From IMG/VR virus record IMGVR_UViG_3300024259_000145, positions 1-25,378 of that record: 25,378 nt of DNA; one strand, 5' to 3'. This DNA comes from a virus. This document shows positions 6,399 through 18,683 of this stretch, piece by piece. The position numbers and the translations under genes are program-made. Position 1 is the stretch's first letter, and every line of letters starts with the position of its first letter. A model generated the notes under the pieces. The model was not told where the DNA came from. It saw nothing but the letters and a program-made list of their open reading frames with translations, and ran no database searches.

Positions 6399-8717
6399 TT
6401 ACAGGAACTGGTAACGCACGTAGATGGTGATTTCGCCTTGGTCCGTGTCCGCCACATCTTCACCCGCACCAACGGTCAACGTTGCGGTGATGGTGTCCGC
6501 ACCGGCGAGGATCGTCGTCAACGCGTCGTCAACGAAAGCTCCCTTGAGCGCGTTGGTCAACGACTTCCAACCAGCACCGGCACCAGTAAGGACATTGGCG
6601 GTAAGGGCGAAGTCGTTGGCGGCTCCGCCGCTGGTTCCGATCGTCAAATCAGCAGCGGTGATCGGAGGACCGGCGAGGTCATCGAACTCGACTTCCAACT
6701 CGTACCAGACGTCGAGAACGTTCATGTCGTCAGGTACGGTGTAGACTGCGATAGTCTCGGCTTGTGCGGCAGCAGTCCACGCGGTGTGCTCGACATTGAT
6801 CTGCATCAACCGGACATCGTACAGGTTCCGCTCACCGATGATGACCCACTCGTCGGTCGCCACGTTCGTGTCGATGATCGCGAGCGCTGCGCCACCACCG
6901 AGTTCGTATGTCGCCCCGCCACCCTGGTTCGCACCGACCGTCTCGGCTCCGTCACCGTCGATGGTGACAGGATCATCGCCGTTGTTCGTGATCTGGATCC
7001 TTCGTCCAAGAGCGGCAGATGCCGGAAGGTCCAGTTCGATCGGTCCACCGGATGTGTCACAGTAGATCACGCTGTCCGCAGCGAGGACCGTGTACGGAGA
7101 TGCGCCGAAGGCGACAGTCGTGACCGCGCCGAGGTGCTCATATCCGGTGTTTCCGATGCCAGCGAAGATCACAGCCGCGTCGACAGACGTGCGCTGGTTG
7201 CCGGCGACGATCTGCCATTCCTGCGTCGCCACGCCGGTATCAAGAACCGTGACCGCATCGCCGTTGGACGCCATAACAAACGTCGCGCCGCCACCCTGGT
7301 CAGCACCTACGGTCTCAGCGCCGTCGCCGTCAAGGGTGACGTTGCCCGCACCCTGGCGGTAGATGCTGATCTTTCGGCCAACAGCGCCTGACGCCGGCAG
7401 GTCCAACTCGATCGCACCGCCCGACGTATCGCAGACGATCTCGCTGTCCGTTGCCAGGACCGTATACGGTGACGCACCAAAAGCGACGACCGTGACCGCA
7501 CCCTTGTTCTCTCCGCCGGTGTTCGTGACGCCCGCGAACTCCACGGCGGCGTCTGTCGAGAGCCGCTGGTTCGGCGATACGAGTTGCCATTCGAGCGTCG
7601 CGACGTTGGTGTCGAGGATCGAGACTGCGTCGCCGTCCGAGGCCATCACATAGGTAGCCCCGCCGCCCTGGTTTGTCCCCACCGTCTCTGCACCGTCACC
7701 GTCGAGCGTGACGTTGTTGCCACCCTGGCGGTAGATGTTGATCCGTCTACCAAGAGCCGCGGACGCAGGGAGATCGAGTTCGATCGCGCCGCCGCTCGTA
7801 TCGCAGATGATGGAGTCATCGGACGACAGGACCGTGTAGGGAGATGCGCCGAAAGCAACGAGCGTGACCGCGCTGACGGCCGGACCTTCCAGCTGCCATT
7901 CCAACGTAGCCACGTTGGTGTCGAGGAGCATCACACTGGCGCCGTCTTCGTCCAGAATGTACGCGAGACCACCACCCTGGTTAGCACCGACCGTCTCGGC
8001 CCCATCACCTTCGATGGTGACGTCGTTGGCGCCCTGTCGGTAGACCGCGAGCTTGCGCCCGAGAGCCGCAGAGGCTGGCAGGTCGAGCGTGACAGCGCCG
8101 CCAGAGGTATCACACACGATCTCGCTGTCGGTGGCGAGCACGGTGTACGGAGATGCACCGAAGGCAACCACGGTGGGCGGGCCCATGTTCTCGCCACCGG
8201 TATTGGTCACGCCCGCGAAGCTGACAGCTGCATCAGTCGACAACCGCTGGTTGTCCGCGATGCGCTGCCATTCTAGCGTGGCCACGTTCGTATCGAGGAT
8301 CATCACGGCTTCGCCGTCGGAGGCGAGGACGTAGGTGGCACCACCGCCCTGGTTCGCGCCGACAGTCTCAGCCCCGTTGCCATCGATGGTGACGTTGCCC
8401 GCACCCTGGCGGCAAATGACGATCTTCCGACCGATCGTGTCCGAAGCGGGCAGATCCAACTCGATCGCGCCGCCAGAAGTGTCGCAGACGATGAAGTCGT
8501 CCGCCGTGAGCACGGTGTACGGGGACGCCGCGAAGGCCACGACCGTTGGGGAGCCGATTGCGCCGCCTTCGAGAGCCAGAATCGCGGCTGCGGCCTCGGT
8601 GCTTCGCGCACGGAGGTTTACCGCCAGTTCATACAGTGTGCCGCTGTTGATGCCCTTTCCACCCTTGGTGAAAGTCGGGGACAGCGTCGTCGGGTCGAGT
8701 GCAGTCGAGATGGGCAT
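6399..8717 (-). CDS. Five-repeat beta-structured virion protein (772 aa), putative head fibre or decoration
   Basis: The start at ATG 8717 has AAGGAG eight bases upstream. After about 55 N-terminal residues the protein has five copies of a roughly 100-residue unit. Each contains ASPYTVL, CDTSGGxIELDLPAS, GRxIxIxRQG, a DGDGAETVGANQGGG turn, and an ending like LDTNVATxEWQ. A 20-residue spacer (QRLSTDAAVxFAGVTNTGG) joins units 1-2, 3-4 and 4-5. It is missing between units 2 and 3. Similar units occur in phage tail and head fibres. The last 140 residues form a different domain ending QGEITIYVRYQFL, similar to the end of the protein at 9263-9667. The gene lies among head genes, so a capsid-surface role is favoured over a tail role. 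Confidence 0.65.
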   Translation of the reverse strand: MPISTALDPTTLSPTFTKGGKGINSGTLYELAVNLRARSTEAAAAILALEGGAIGSPTVVAFAASPYTVLTADDFIVCDTSGGAIELDLPASDTIGRKIVICRQGAGNVTIDGNGAETVGANQGGGATYVLASDGEAVMILDTNVATLEWQRIADNQRLSTDAAVSFAGVTNTGGENMGPPTVVAFGASPYTVLATDSEIVCDTSGGAVTLDLPASAALGRKLAVYRQGANDVTIEGDGAETVGANQGGGLAYILDEDGASVMLLDTNVATLEWQLEGPAVSAVTLVAFGASPYTVLSSDDSIICDTSGGAIELDLPASAALGRRINIYRQGGNNVTLDGDGAETVGTNQGGGATYVMASDGDAVSILDTNVATLEWQLVSPNQRLSTDAAVEFAGVTNTGGENKGAVTVVAFGASPYTVLATDSEIVCDTSGGAIELDLPASGAVGRKISIYRQGAGNVTLDGDGAETVGADQGGGATFVMASNGDAVTVLDTGVATQEWQIVAGNQRTSVDAAVIFAGIGNTGYEHLGAVTTVAFGASPYTVLAADSVIYCDTSGGPIELDLPASAALGRRIQITNNGDDPVTIDGDGAETVGANQGGGATYELGGGAALAIIDTNVATDEWVIIGERNLYDVRLMQINVEHTAWTAAAQAETIAVYTVPDDMNVLDVWYELEVEFDDLAGPPITAADLTIGTSGGAANDFALTANVLTGAGAGWKSLTNALKGAFVDDALTTILAGADTITATLTVGAGEDVADTDQGEITIYVRYQFL

Positions 8718-17543: not shown

Positions 17544-17587
17544 AAGGGCGGGGAAACATCGGTTCCATTGATGGGCTCCCCGCCCTT
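17544..17587 (-). terminator. Perfect 11-bp hairpin after the tRNA-like region
   Basis: AAGGGCGGGGA (17544-17554) is repeated inverted at 17577-17587 around a 22-base loop that itself can form a 4-bp CATC/GATG inner stem. On the minus strand it lies just after the left tRNA-like module and before the gene starting at 17508. No U-run follows, so it may act as a terminator, a processing stem or an mRNA 5'-end cap. It is the strongest stem in this region. Confidence 0.55.
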
Positions 17588-17589
17588 GT

Positions 17590-17738
17590 AAAGGCTTGAC
17601 TGACACACGCTTACTCGCATCCGGTTGAAACGGCCCGCTCTGTCCACTGAGCTACCCTCACATATGTGGGGTGAGGGGTGGGATTTGAACCCACGACGCA
17701 GCCGTAAGGTGCTTTCATGCAGAGACAACCTAGCCTTT
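17590..17738 (-). other. Flank-paired module enclosing the left permuted tRNA
   Basis: Sequence before the 3' half and after the 5' half is complementary and nested. AAAGGCT (17738-17732) pairs with AGCCTTT (17596-17590), 7 bp. CTCTGCAT (17724-17717) pairs with ATGCGAG (17620-17614) with one bulge. GAAA (17716-17713) pairs with TTTC (17630-17627). Together they extend the anticodon stem outward into a long helix that brings the two internal ends together. An alternative pairing GGTTG with CAACC would make a pseudoknot. This looks like a processing or splicing scaffold. Confidence 0.55.
17624..17708 (-). tRNA. Circularly permuted tRNA gene, class I (left module)
   Basis: On the minus strand the 3' half comes first: CGGCT (17704-17700), 5-base variable loop GCGTC, T-stem GTGGG/CCCAC with loop TTCAAAT, acceptor strand CCCTCAC (17677-17671), C, then CCA. 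After CATAT comes the 5' half: acceptor GTGAGGG (17661-17655), TA, D-stem GCTC/GAGC with a GG-containing loop, G, then GGCCG (17635-17631). Acceptor pairs 7/7. GGCCG pairs with CGGCT (one G-U). T- and D-stems pair fully. All spacings match a canonical tRNA once the halves are swapped, so the junction lies in the anticodon loop. The anticodon depends on the junction: UCU (Arg) if TTTC joins TTA, CCU if TT joins CCTTA, UCA if the 5' half supplies the whole loop. C73 is unusual. Ends are approximate. Confidence 0.72.
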
Positions 17739-17760: not shown

Positions 17761-17905
17761 AAAAGCTAAGGGGACGATACGCGGAACCGATGCTGTCAAG
17801 GCGTCGTGCGTATACCGTTCCGCCACCGCTCCACTCTTGGAGCGGGCAGGATTCGAACCTGCAATAGCGTACCGTGTTCCCATAGGTCAGTTTGATCCTA
17901 AGCCT
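17761..17905 (-). other. Flank-paired module enclosing the right permuted tRNA
   Basis: ACGGTACGC (17875-17867) before the 3' half pairs with GCGTATCGT (17782-17774) after the 5' half at all 9 positions (one G-U). Further out AGGCT (17905-17901) pairs with AGCTT (67-63 of 17700s; one G-U), and CTATGGG with CCCTTAG at 6 of 7. The outer AGGCT/AGCYTT pairing and the downstream AGCYTTTAC are shared with the left module. Module length (145 nt) is close to that of the other (149 nt). Confidence 0.5.
17783..17866 (-). tRNA. Circularly permuted tRNA-like gene with Leu-like D-arm (right module)
   Basis: The 3' half comes first on the minus strand: TATT, T-stem GCAGG/CCTGC (17862-17858 and 17850-17846) with loop TTCGAAT, acceptor strand CCGCTCC (17845-17839) and A. 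After AGAGT comes the 5' half: acceptor GGAGCGG (17832-17826), TG, then GCGGAACGGTATACGC, a D-arm close to those of leucine tRNAs. The acceptor pairs 7/7 and CCA is not encoded. A hairpin follows with loop CTTGACA and stem CGACGC/GCATCG (one A-C mismatch), which would give anticodon UGA (Ser) with an atypical C37. The amino-acid identity is therefore unresolved. The permutation point is probably in the long variable-arm-like helix. The boundaries are approximate. Confidence 0.58.
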
Positions 17906-17942
17906 GAATCTCAGTCTACCTCAGTTGGAGATCCGTTCCCGG

Positions 17943-18683
17943 CTACTTGCCGAGCACGTAATCGAATAGCGGTCCAACAACGTCCACCTCATCCACGCGA
18001 GCGCGGTTGGCGTCGTCTCGGGCCTTCTTGATCGCAGCGATCATTTCGTCGCAGCGGGCCAGCATGGCCTTCTTGTCCTTGCGGGTCATGGCGCCGCTGA
18101 ACTTGGTGCCACGCCACCACCCGACGGTCACATCTTCGCTGATGAGCTGGGTTTGCGCCGGGTGCTCCTTGGTCGGCTTGTGAAGCACGATTGCGCGCGT
18201 CCTTTTGGCGGTCTTGCGGGTCGTTACCTGATGCGCCGTACGGTGGTAACCGAGATCCTCATCCCAGGCCCACTCGTCCGCCTCGTCCAGGGTTGGCACC
18301 ACGTCGATGGCGCGCCTCATGTCGGTGAACTGCTTTTCCAGGAACAGCAACGCCGGAACCGGCAGCGGCATGGTGGTCATGGTGTCTGACACCGTGACCG
18401 GGGCCATGGCGGCCTCATTGCAGTTGCCCAGTTCCTTGGACAAGGTGAGGCCACCCAACTTAGCCCACGCATCGGTAATGTCCTGAAGGGCGTCACCGGC
18501 CACCATCCGAACCCTTACCCTCTTGGCCGGCAGGGCTTCATCTGTGTCCGAGGCTGGCTCGTACACTTCCACGCTTCCGGCGTACAACTCGCCCTTCTGC
18601 ATGGCCTTGTGAATGGCGGTGACCTCACCGTGTGTTCGCTTCTTGGCGTCAGCTTCCAACGCCACAACCTGCGATAGCCTCAT
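17943..18683 (-). CDS. DUF7873-like phage protein (246 aa)
   Basis: The start at ATG 18683 has AGGAGG five bases upstream and follows a TTGCAA-17-TAAGGT promoter. The layout matches a conserved family in actinobacteria and their phages that I recognise as DUF7873. The N-terminus is MRLSQVVALEADAKKRTHGEV, quoted in part. A middle segment TLSKELGNCNEAAMAPVTV follows. Then comes the motif PVPALLFLEKQFTDMRRAID (about residues 125-145), and a C-terminus with EHPAQTQLISEDVTVGWW, then KFSGAMTRKDK and GPLFDYVLGK. The biochemical role is unknown. It is the first gene of the long left-reading operon that leads to the head genes, with the tRNA-like modules right after its stop. Confidence 0.72.
   Translation of the reverse strand: MRLSQVVALEADAKKRTHGEVTAIHKAMQKGELYAGSVEVYEPASDTDEALPAKRVRVRMVAGDALQDITDAWAKLGGLTLSKELGNCNEAAMAPVTVSDTMTTMPLPVPALLFLEKQFTDMRRAIDVVPTLDEADEWAWDEDLGYHRTAHQVTTRKTAKRTRAIVLHKPTKEHPAQTQLISEDVTVGWWRGTKFSGAMTRKDKKAMLARCDEMIAAIKKARDDANRARVDEVDVVGPLFDYVLGK

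Follow-up and report, generated by a model that had tools for sequence, protein, structure and literature searches.

A phage DUF7873 gene followed by two tandem permuted tRNA-like RNAs, a probable ribonucleoprotein locus

In a phage record from IMG/VR (25,378 bases, analysed as a whole and called the window below), a gene for a DUF7873 protein is followed by two permuted tRNA-like RNAs, module B (module 1) and then module A (module 2), all in one direction on the minus strand. Module A had been singled out earlier, from the letters alone, as a circularly permuted tRNA gene; this original prediction reported neither module B nor the adjoining gene. We consider it probable that the locus encodes a ribonucleoprotein (RNP) with tandem permuted tRNA mimics. 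The evidence comprises the gene-RNA-RNA order, the permuted core, an RNA structure established by covariation, the periodicity of YUNA motifs and a junction that carries no anticodon signal. The pairing of DUF7873 with permuted RNAs is not described in the literature searched, which was mainly open-access and did not extend to the original YrlA papers, and the system was apparently undescribed before.

Module A with its flanks occupies 17593–17735 (minus strand, as are all features of the locus), and its core without flanks runs from 17704 to 17631. The core begins with CGGCT (17700–17704), the 3´ half of a closing stem at the anticodon position, and continues through GCGTC to the T-arm GTGGG TTCAAAT CCCAC (17678–17694) and the acceptor 3´ strand CCCTCAC (17671–17677). 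The acceptor loop (17662–17670) consists of a C, an encoded CCA (17669–17667) and CATAT, and leads to the acceptor 5´ strand GTGAGGG (17655–17661). TA then separates this strand from the D-arm GCTC AGTGGACA GAGC (17637–17652), and a single G connects the D-arm to GGCCG (17631–17635), the 5´ half of the closing stem. The geometry given by the original prediction proved exact: the 3´ half precedes the 5´ half on one strand with the five-base gap CATAT, the acceptor strands pair 7/7, the T- and D-arms pair as described, and GGCCG and CGGCT pair 5/5, a match whose chance probability alone is about 0.8%. The flanks contain two further, tentative stems. S2 is formed by CTCTGCAT (17717–17724) and ATGCGAG (17614–17620), both placed by their position in family alignment A5, and S1 by GGCTAGGTTG (17726–17735) and CAGTCAAGCC (17593–17602), which pair at 9/10 positions.

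Module B (17763–17908; 17874–17775 between the ends of its closing stem) is located just upstream of module A. A tentative closing stem, CGGTACGC (17867–17874) with GCGTATCG (17775–17782), pairs 8/8 and encloses a T-arm GCAGG TTCGAAT CCTGC (17846–17862), the acceptor strands CCGCTCC (17839–17845) and GGAGCGG (17826–17832), which pair 7/7, an acceptor loop AAGAGT without CCA (17833–17838), and a Leu-like D-arm GCGGAACGGTATACGC (17808–17823). RNAfold places a tentative anticodon-like hairpin, CGACGC CTTGACA GCATCG (17788–17806), in the 5´ half. The head of the module carries 6-nucleotide (nt) repeats of the NNYTNA type, GACTGA GATTCA GGCTTA GGATCA AACTGA (17887–17916), of which one copy is degenerate. 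The DUF7873 gene (17943–18683; 246 amino acids (aa); Pfam PF25283, 4e-66) is directly upstream of both RNAs. A generic structural scan for a T-arm, a 7-bp acceptor hairpin and a D-arm in that order recovered modules A and B only, and the same scan of both strands of 60 Markov-shuffled windows recovered none. The same phage is represented by a longer record (46,769 bases), which is 100% identical over 23.9 kb and contributes no independent evidence; apart from this sister contig, neither the proteins nor the RNA of the window itself yielded close relatives.

The same arrangement recurs in distant phages. The DUF7873 protein was detected by tblastn in 62 GenBank phage records, and among 324 relatives found in IMG/VR, 80 loci were kept for module counts. 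At least one module lies within 900 nt downstream of the gene in 71 of these 80 loci and two modules in 45, whereas control scans at the same loci gave one module upstream and one antisense. Two modules follow the gene in the Gordonia phages Phendrix and GodonK, the Arthrobacter phages Mimi and Talia1610, the Rhodococcus phage NiceHouse, Klebsiella jumbo phages and others; in these named phages the module stretch holds no annotated gene or only a doubtful one, and ACCA, TCCA or GCCA often stands 3´ of the acceptor 3´ strand. One module follows the gene in Vibrio and Rhizobium phages. In Gordonia phage Keelan and Pseudanabaena phage PA-SR01, both modules were missed by the first scan and found by covariance models, and a Microcoleus phage has weaker covariance-model matches about 2 kb away from the gene. 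The DUF7873-linked RNA family is defined here by the gene directly upstream and two tandem modules 140–187 nt apart, and the spacings in the window (86 and 168 nt) agree with it. The swapped order of the halves is conserved in distant phages, at loci with DUF7873, and the claim that a phage carries an element derived from a tRNA by circular permutation is supported. No Rfam match to a group I intron was found in the relatives, and a permuted intron-exon origin was set aside. Several side observations were made at these loci. The Microcoleus phage My-WqHQDG carries a HEARO RNA (129 bits) downstream of DUF7873 (L446:3441-3650), and an annotated 'tRNA-Stop(tta)' of Klebsiella phage Centimanus (L443:3507-3590) coincides in part with the stretch of permuted modules and was probably called in error. 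Among 14 control genomes, Deinobacterium chartae gave the sole DUF7873 match and is also the sole one with TROVE.

Covariation in these relatives defines the RNA structure. Both sides are changed in 12 of 16 pairs in the alignment of module 1 and in 27 of 30 pairs in that of module 2, which includes module A, and the closing stem (nt 27–31 with 39–43) reaches z of about 13 and 14 against between-locus permutations. Module 2 of the relatives contains the additional 7-bp stems S1 and S2, which enclose an internal loop GAUCGACC / CUUAAACG. The heads of module 1 carry YUNA motifs at 6-nt spacing (95 pairs observed vs 3.3 expected), which suggests a protein-binding array. The array of module B is slightly degenerate, with a run of three that was matched in 12 of 5000 shuffles. 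That the RNAs are merely non-functional debris of rearranged tRNA genes is very improbable. In favour of debris, many relatives lie inside tRNA arrays and the window copies have weak outer stems, but the acceptor stems are 84 distinct ones that pair 7/7 in 113 of 116 cases, and order and spacing are fixed beside one gene; the strong covariation had by itself already disfavoured this explanation.

Covariance models R1 (module 2) and R2 (module 1) were built from the relatives without the window. They recovered 31 of 33 held-out loci for module 2 and 22 of 33 for module 1, and they assign module B to module 1 (50.4 bits over the full length) and module A to module 2 (48.3 bits). Since YrlA modules also reach 36–48 bits on the core of these models, the core score of module A cannot place it alone, and module A is placed in the family by the neighbouring gene, the order and the spacing. 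The outer stems of both window modules are likewise assigned by homology.

A number of points weigh against the RNP reading. The window is a divergent member of the family, and R1 matches module A in its core only. Module A is able to form S1 and S2, no better than shuffles do, and its motif letters differ from those of the relatives; S2 is not significant alone, and the 9/10 pairing of S1 was equalled by 450 of 1000 shuffles. The 8/8 closing stem of module B was reached by 99 of 1000 shuffles and is also not significant alone, and the stability of head plus tail in A and B does not exceed that of shuffled flanks (z +1.0 and +0.4). Module B retains the anticodon-like hairpin, and fewer than half of the DUF7873-linked modules encode a full CCA. 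Finally, DUF7873 has no recognised fold, so that its putative RNA binding is read from synteny and periodicity.

The AlphaFold model of the DUF7873 protein is confident (predicted local distance difference test (pLDDT) 95, predicted template-modelling score (pTM) 0.82). No PDB structure matched it at E below 1e-3, no significant sequence relative was found in PDB, and DUF7873 is absent from PHROGs; among viral models, a crAss-like phage protein matches best (TM 0.43/0.57). The family (PF25283) has no described function and is not named in the literature searched. Kinship with Cas7 was considered and rejected: the top Foldseek entries are Cascade Cas7 subunits (E 2e-3), but their TM is only 0.13, and a comparison to E. 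coli CasC by hhalign was null. Cas7 binds RNA in 6-nt steps, and it is because of this spacing that Cas7 is retained as a lead only. In one relative (L497:2501-3226), the DUF7873 open frame contains one in-frame stop under table 11, a possible recoding or an error.

The original prediction regarded module A as a permuted tRNA gene. Its permuted core stands, the closing stem covaries across relatives and N73-C(CA) is enriched behind the acceptor strand; the status of a tRNA gene is not supported. In that explanation, which we find unlikely, the precursor would be cut and religated at the anticodon loop to yield a normal charged, decoding tRNA. It draws on the permuted order with full cloverleaf pairing, on the CCA encoded in module A and in 47 of 107 relatives, on the covariation of the closing stem and on the many relatives inside tRNA arrays. 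The proposed check, reordering the halves and scoring the product, does return a tRNA; however, all 92 of 92 permuted modules tested with ARAGORN, Ro60-adjacent Y RNAs included, pass it too, so that reordering does not tell permuted tRNAs and tRNA mimics apart, a limit that affects any survey of permuted tRNAs. The junction itself is more informative. In relatives with a 5/5 closing stem, it shows near-zero conservation in module 1 and a YUNA motif in module 2, and neither U33 nor a purine at position 37 is kept, as a conserved anticodon loop would demand. The conserved flanks are the 7-bp stems and their motif and differ from a bulge-helix-bulge (BHB); none is present in the module-2 consensus (S2, internal loop, S1), and no dedicated search of the window was made. 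Moreover, the RNAs follow one protein gene and occur paired, and TGA serves as a stop in the window, where it ends 10 of 21 genes. TGA recoding was for that reason rejected as an account of a UCA anticodon. An ARAGORN call of 'SeC(tca)' at 17586–17662 was likewise discarded, being obtained at a relaxed threshold only; the Rfam tRNA model gives 21.2 bits at this place, under its gathering score of 29.

Standard searches of the window were negative. ARAGORN reported 0 genes, no canonical tRNA was called, and no Rfam family matched at gathering; below that level, YrlA reached 28.3 bits (gathering 69), besides the tRNA match above. Models of transfer-messenger RNA (tmRNA) scored 14–17 bits against gathering scores of 47–70, and about 25 bits against 84 in the relatives. 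Neither a sigma-70-like promoter nor a terminator on the minus strand was found near the RNAs. Elsewhere in the window, a minus-strand open frame (6399–8717, 772 aa) contains several repeats in tandem, each about 115 aa long.

A two-piece tRNA is slightly less likely still than a religated one. Here RNase P and CCA maturation would open the acceptor loop, and the pieces, held together by their stems, would be charged and decode. In its favour, CCA is enriched, module B has an anticodon-like hairpin (CTTGACA) within its 5´ half, which makes a two-piece decoding form conceivable for this module, and module A has an alternative hairpin (TTTCAAC); permuted tmRNA is a precedent for an unligated two-piece RNA (PMC3978253). 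The anticodon stems contain mismatches, however, an anticodon hairpin is missing at that place from most class-I relatives, and the alternative fold of module A ties thermodynamically with the closing-stem fold.

We return to the RNP as the favoured explanation. The two RNAs would be co-transcribed with the gene from upstream, as no promoter match lies between the gene and the RNAs. The DUF7873 protein would bind the flanking stems and the repeats, and the resulting RNP would display tRNA-like elbows and acceptor ends on a plan like that of Ro60 with its Y RNA. In modules that encode CCA, the acceptor loop could be opened by RNase P together with 3´ trimming, giving an RNA in two pieces whose CCA end is genuine; such an opening would resemble that of two-piece tmRNA and would need no splicing enzyme. 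The RNAs may then engage tRNA-acting enzymes as tRNA mimics. That they serve as a decoy or tether for enzymes of this kind, such as anticodon nucleases of the host or a degradation enzyme, is the least certain step and is offered only tentatively. It is conceivable, though short of an even chance, that the DUF7873 RNP has a possibly new RNA-binding fold running along the 6-nt YUNA repeats, with CCA-opened mimics that divert tRNA-acting host enzymes. In any case, phages of very different hosts retain a mostly unannotated gene with two structured RNAs that resemble the body of a tRNA. If the locus does form an RNP, the Ro60/Y RNA plan would have been invented a second time, apparently independently, and the locus would provide a handle on the phage response to tRNA-targeting defences and a direct way to probe the role of DUF7873.

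YrlA, a bacterial Y RNA, contains a tRNA-like domain in the same arm order (review PMC8394870), and the window RNAs could in principle be YrlA-type Y RNAs that serve a Ro60 (TROVE) protein of the host or of a phage. This we judge improbable, to about the same degree as the permuted tRNA gene. The arm order is identical, the tRNA-like T/acceptor/D module is present, and the Rfam YrlA model rises to 31–38 bits in the relatives. A core scan of IMG/VR found many permuted modules outside canonical tRNAs, and in 8 of 24 such phage contigs a YrlA-type module lies beside a TROVE/Ro60 gene, within about 1.5 kb by coordinates. The YrlA scores in the window (28.3 and 20.6 bits) fall far under the gathering score, which is a weak argument because TROVE-linked phage modules also fall below it. 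The partners also differ: the 46.8-kb sister contig has no TROVE, only 6 of 40 DUF7873 contigs have it, and none of the TROVE-linked or other YrlA-type contigs tested contains DUF7873. The conserved motifs are not the same either, nor are the acceptor loops. CCA and C74 are found in 47 and 94 of 107 DUF7873-linked modules, compared with 5 and 29 of 76 YrlA-type modules. The two systems can coexist, as one phage contig (L527 / G064) has TROVE about 2 kb or less from DUF7873.

Other permuted modules of the core scan were also recorded. A split anticodon arm can be completed 5/5 in 63 of 92 YrlA-type modules, a count made with no shuffle control, with nt 27–28 from the 5´ half and nt 29–31, the loop and nt 39–43 from the 3´ half. 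The loops are often real-looking (CTGTTAA, CTCATAA, CTTTTAA, CTTCTAA), and examples include L019, L076, L084, L087, L093, L119, L120, L161, L216 and L285. Permuted modules in the tRNA-rich phage contigs L285, L290, L087, L019, L128, L117 and L124 have TACAGCAA or GCTTATTTC upstream; DUF7873 was not detected there, nor TROVE where tested. In L156, L212 (Aquimarina), L192 (Saprospiraceae) and L251, tRNA-like halves form chains in which an acceptor strand pairs with that of the next unit and the anticodon arm lies within the 5´ half. A match to cow-rumen-3 RNA (71.6 bits, gathering 86.7) lies near a permuted module at L076:8513-8608.

Compared with known systems, the locus combines familiar elements in a distinct manner. 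Algae and one archaeon have permuted tRNA genes of the BHB type, with an intervening sequence of 1–74 bp (PMC3978253); these genes also place the 3´ half first with a short gap (here 5 nt after CCA). In contrast, the RNAs described here have no junction BHB and no conserved anticodon, belong to a bacterial virus and are linked to one protein gene. Two-piece tmRNA shares a permuted tRNA-like domain, an acceptor loop as a possible processing site and no need for religation, whereas here the D- and T-arms are both tRNA-like. The closest counterpart is YrlA (RF02553) with Ro60/Rsr: a tRNA-mimic noncoding RNA with a T-arm, a closed acceptor hairpin and a D-arm in order, flanking stems with an internal loop, and a protein partner coded beside it, in phages too. 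Here, DUF7873 takes the place of TROVE, two different RNAs stand in tandem with their own internal-loop motifs and YUNA repeats, and the acceptor loop is usually N73-C(CA) plus a leader, unlike the tight short loop of YrlA. Like YrlA with Ro60, the DUF7873 locus joins permuted tRNA-mimic RNA to a probable protein partner, but the protein belongs to an unrelated family, the RNAs are two in number, and their motifs are different.
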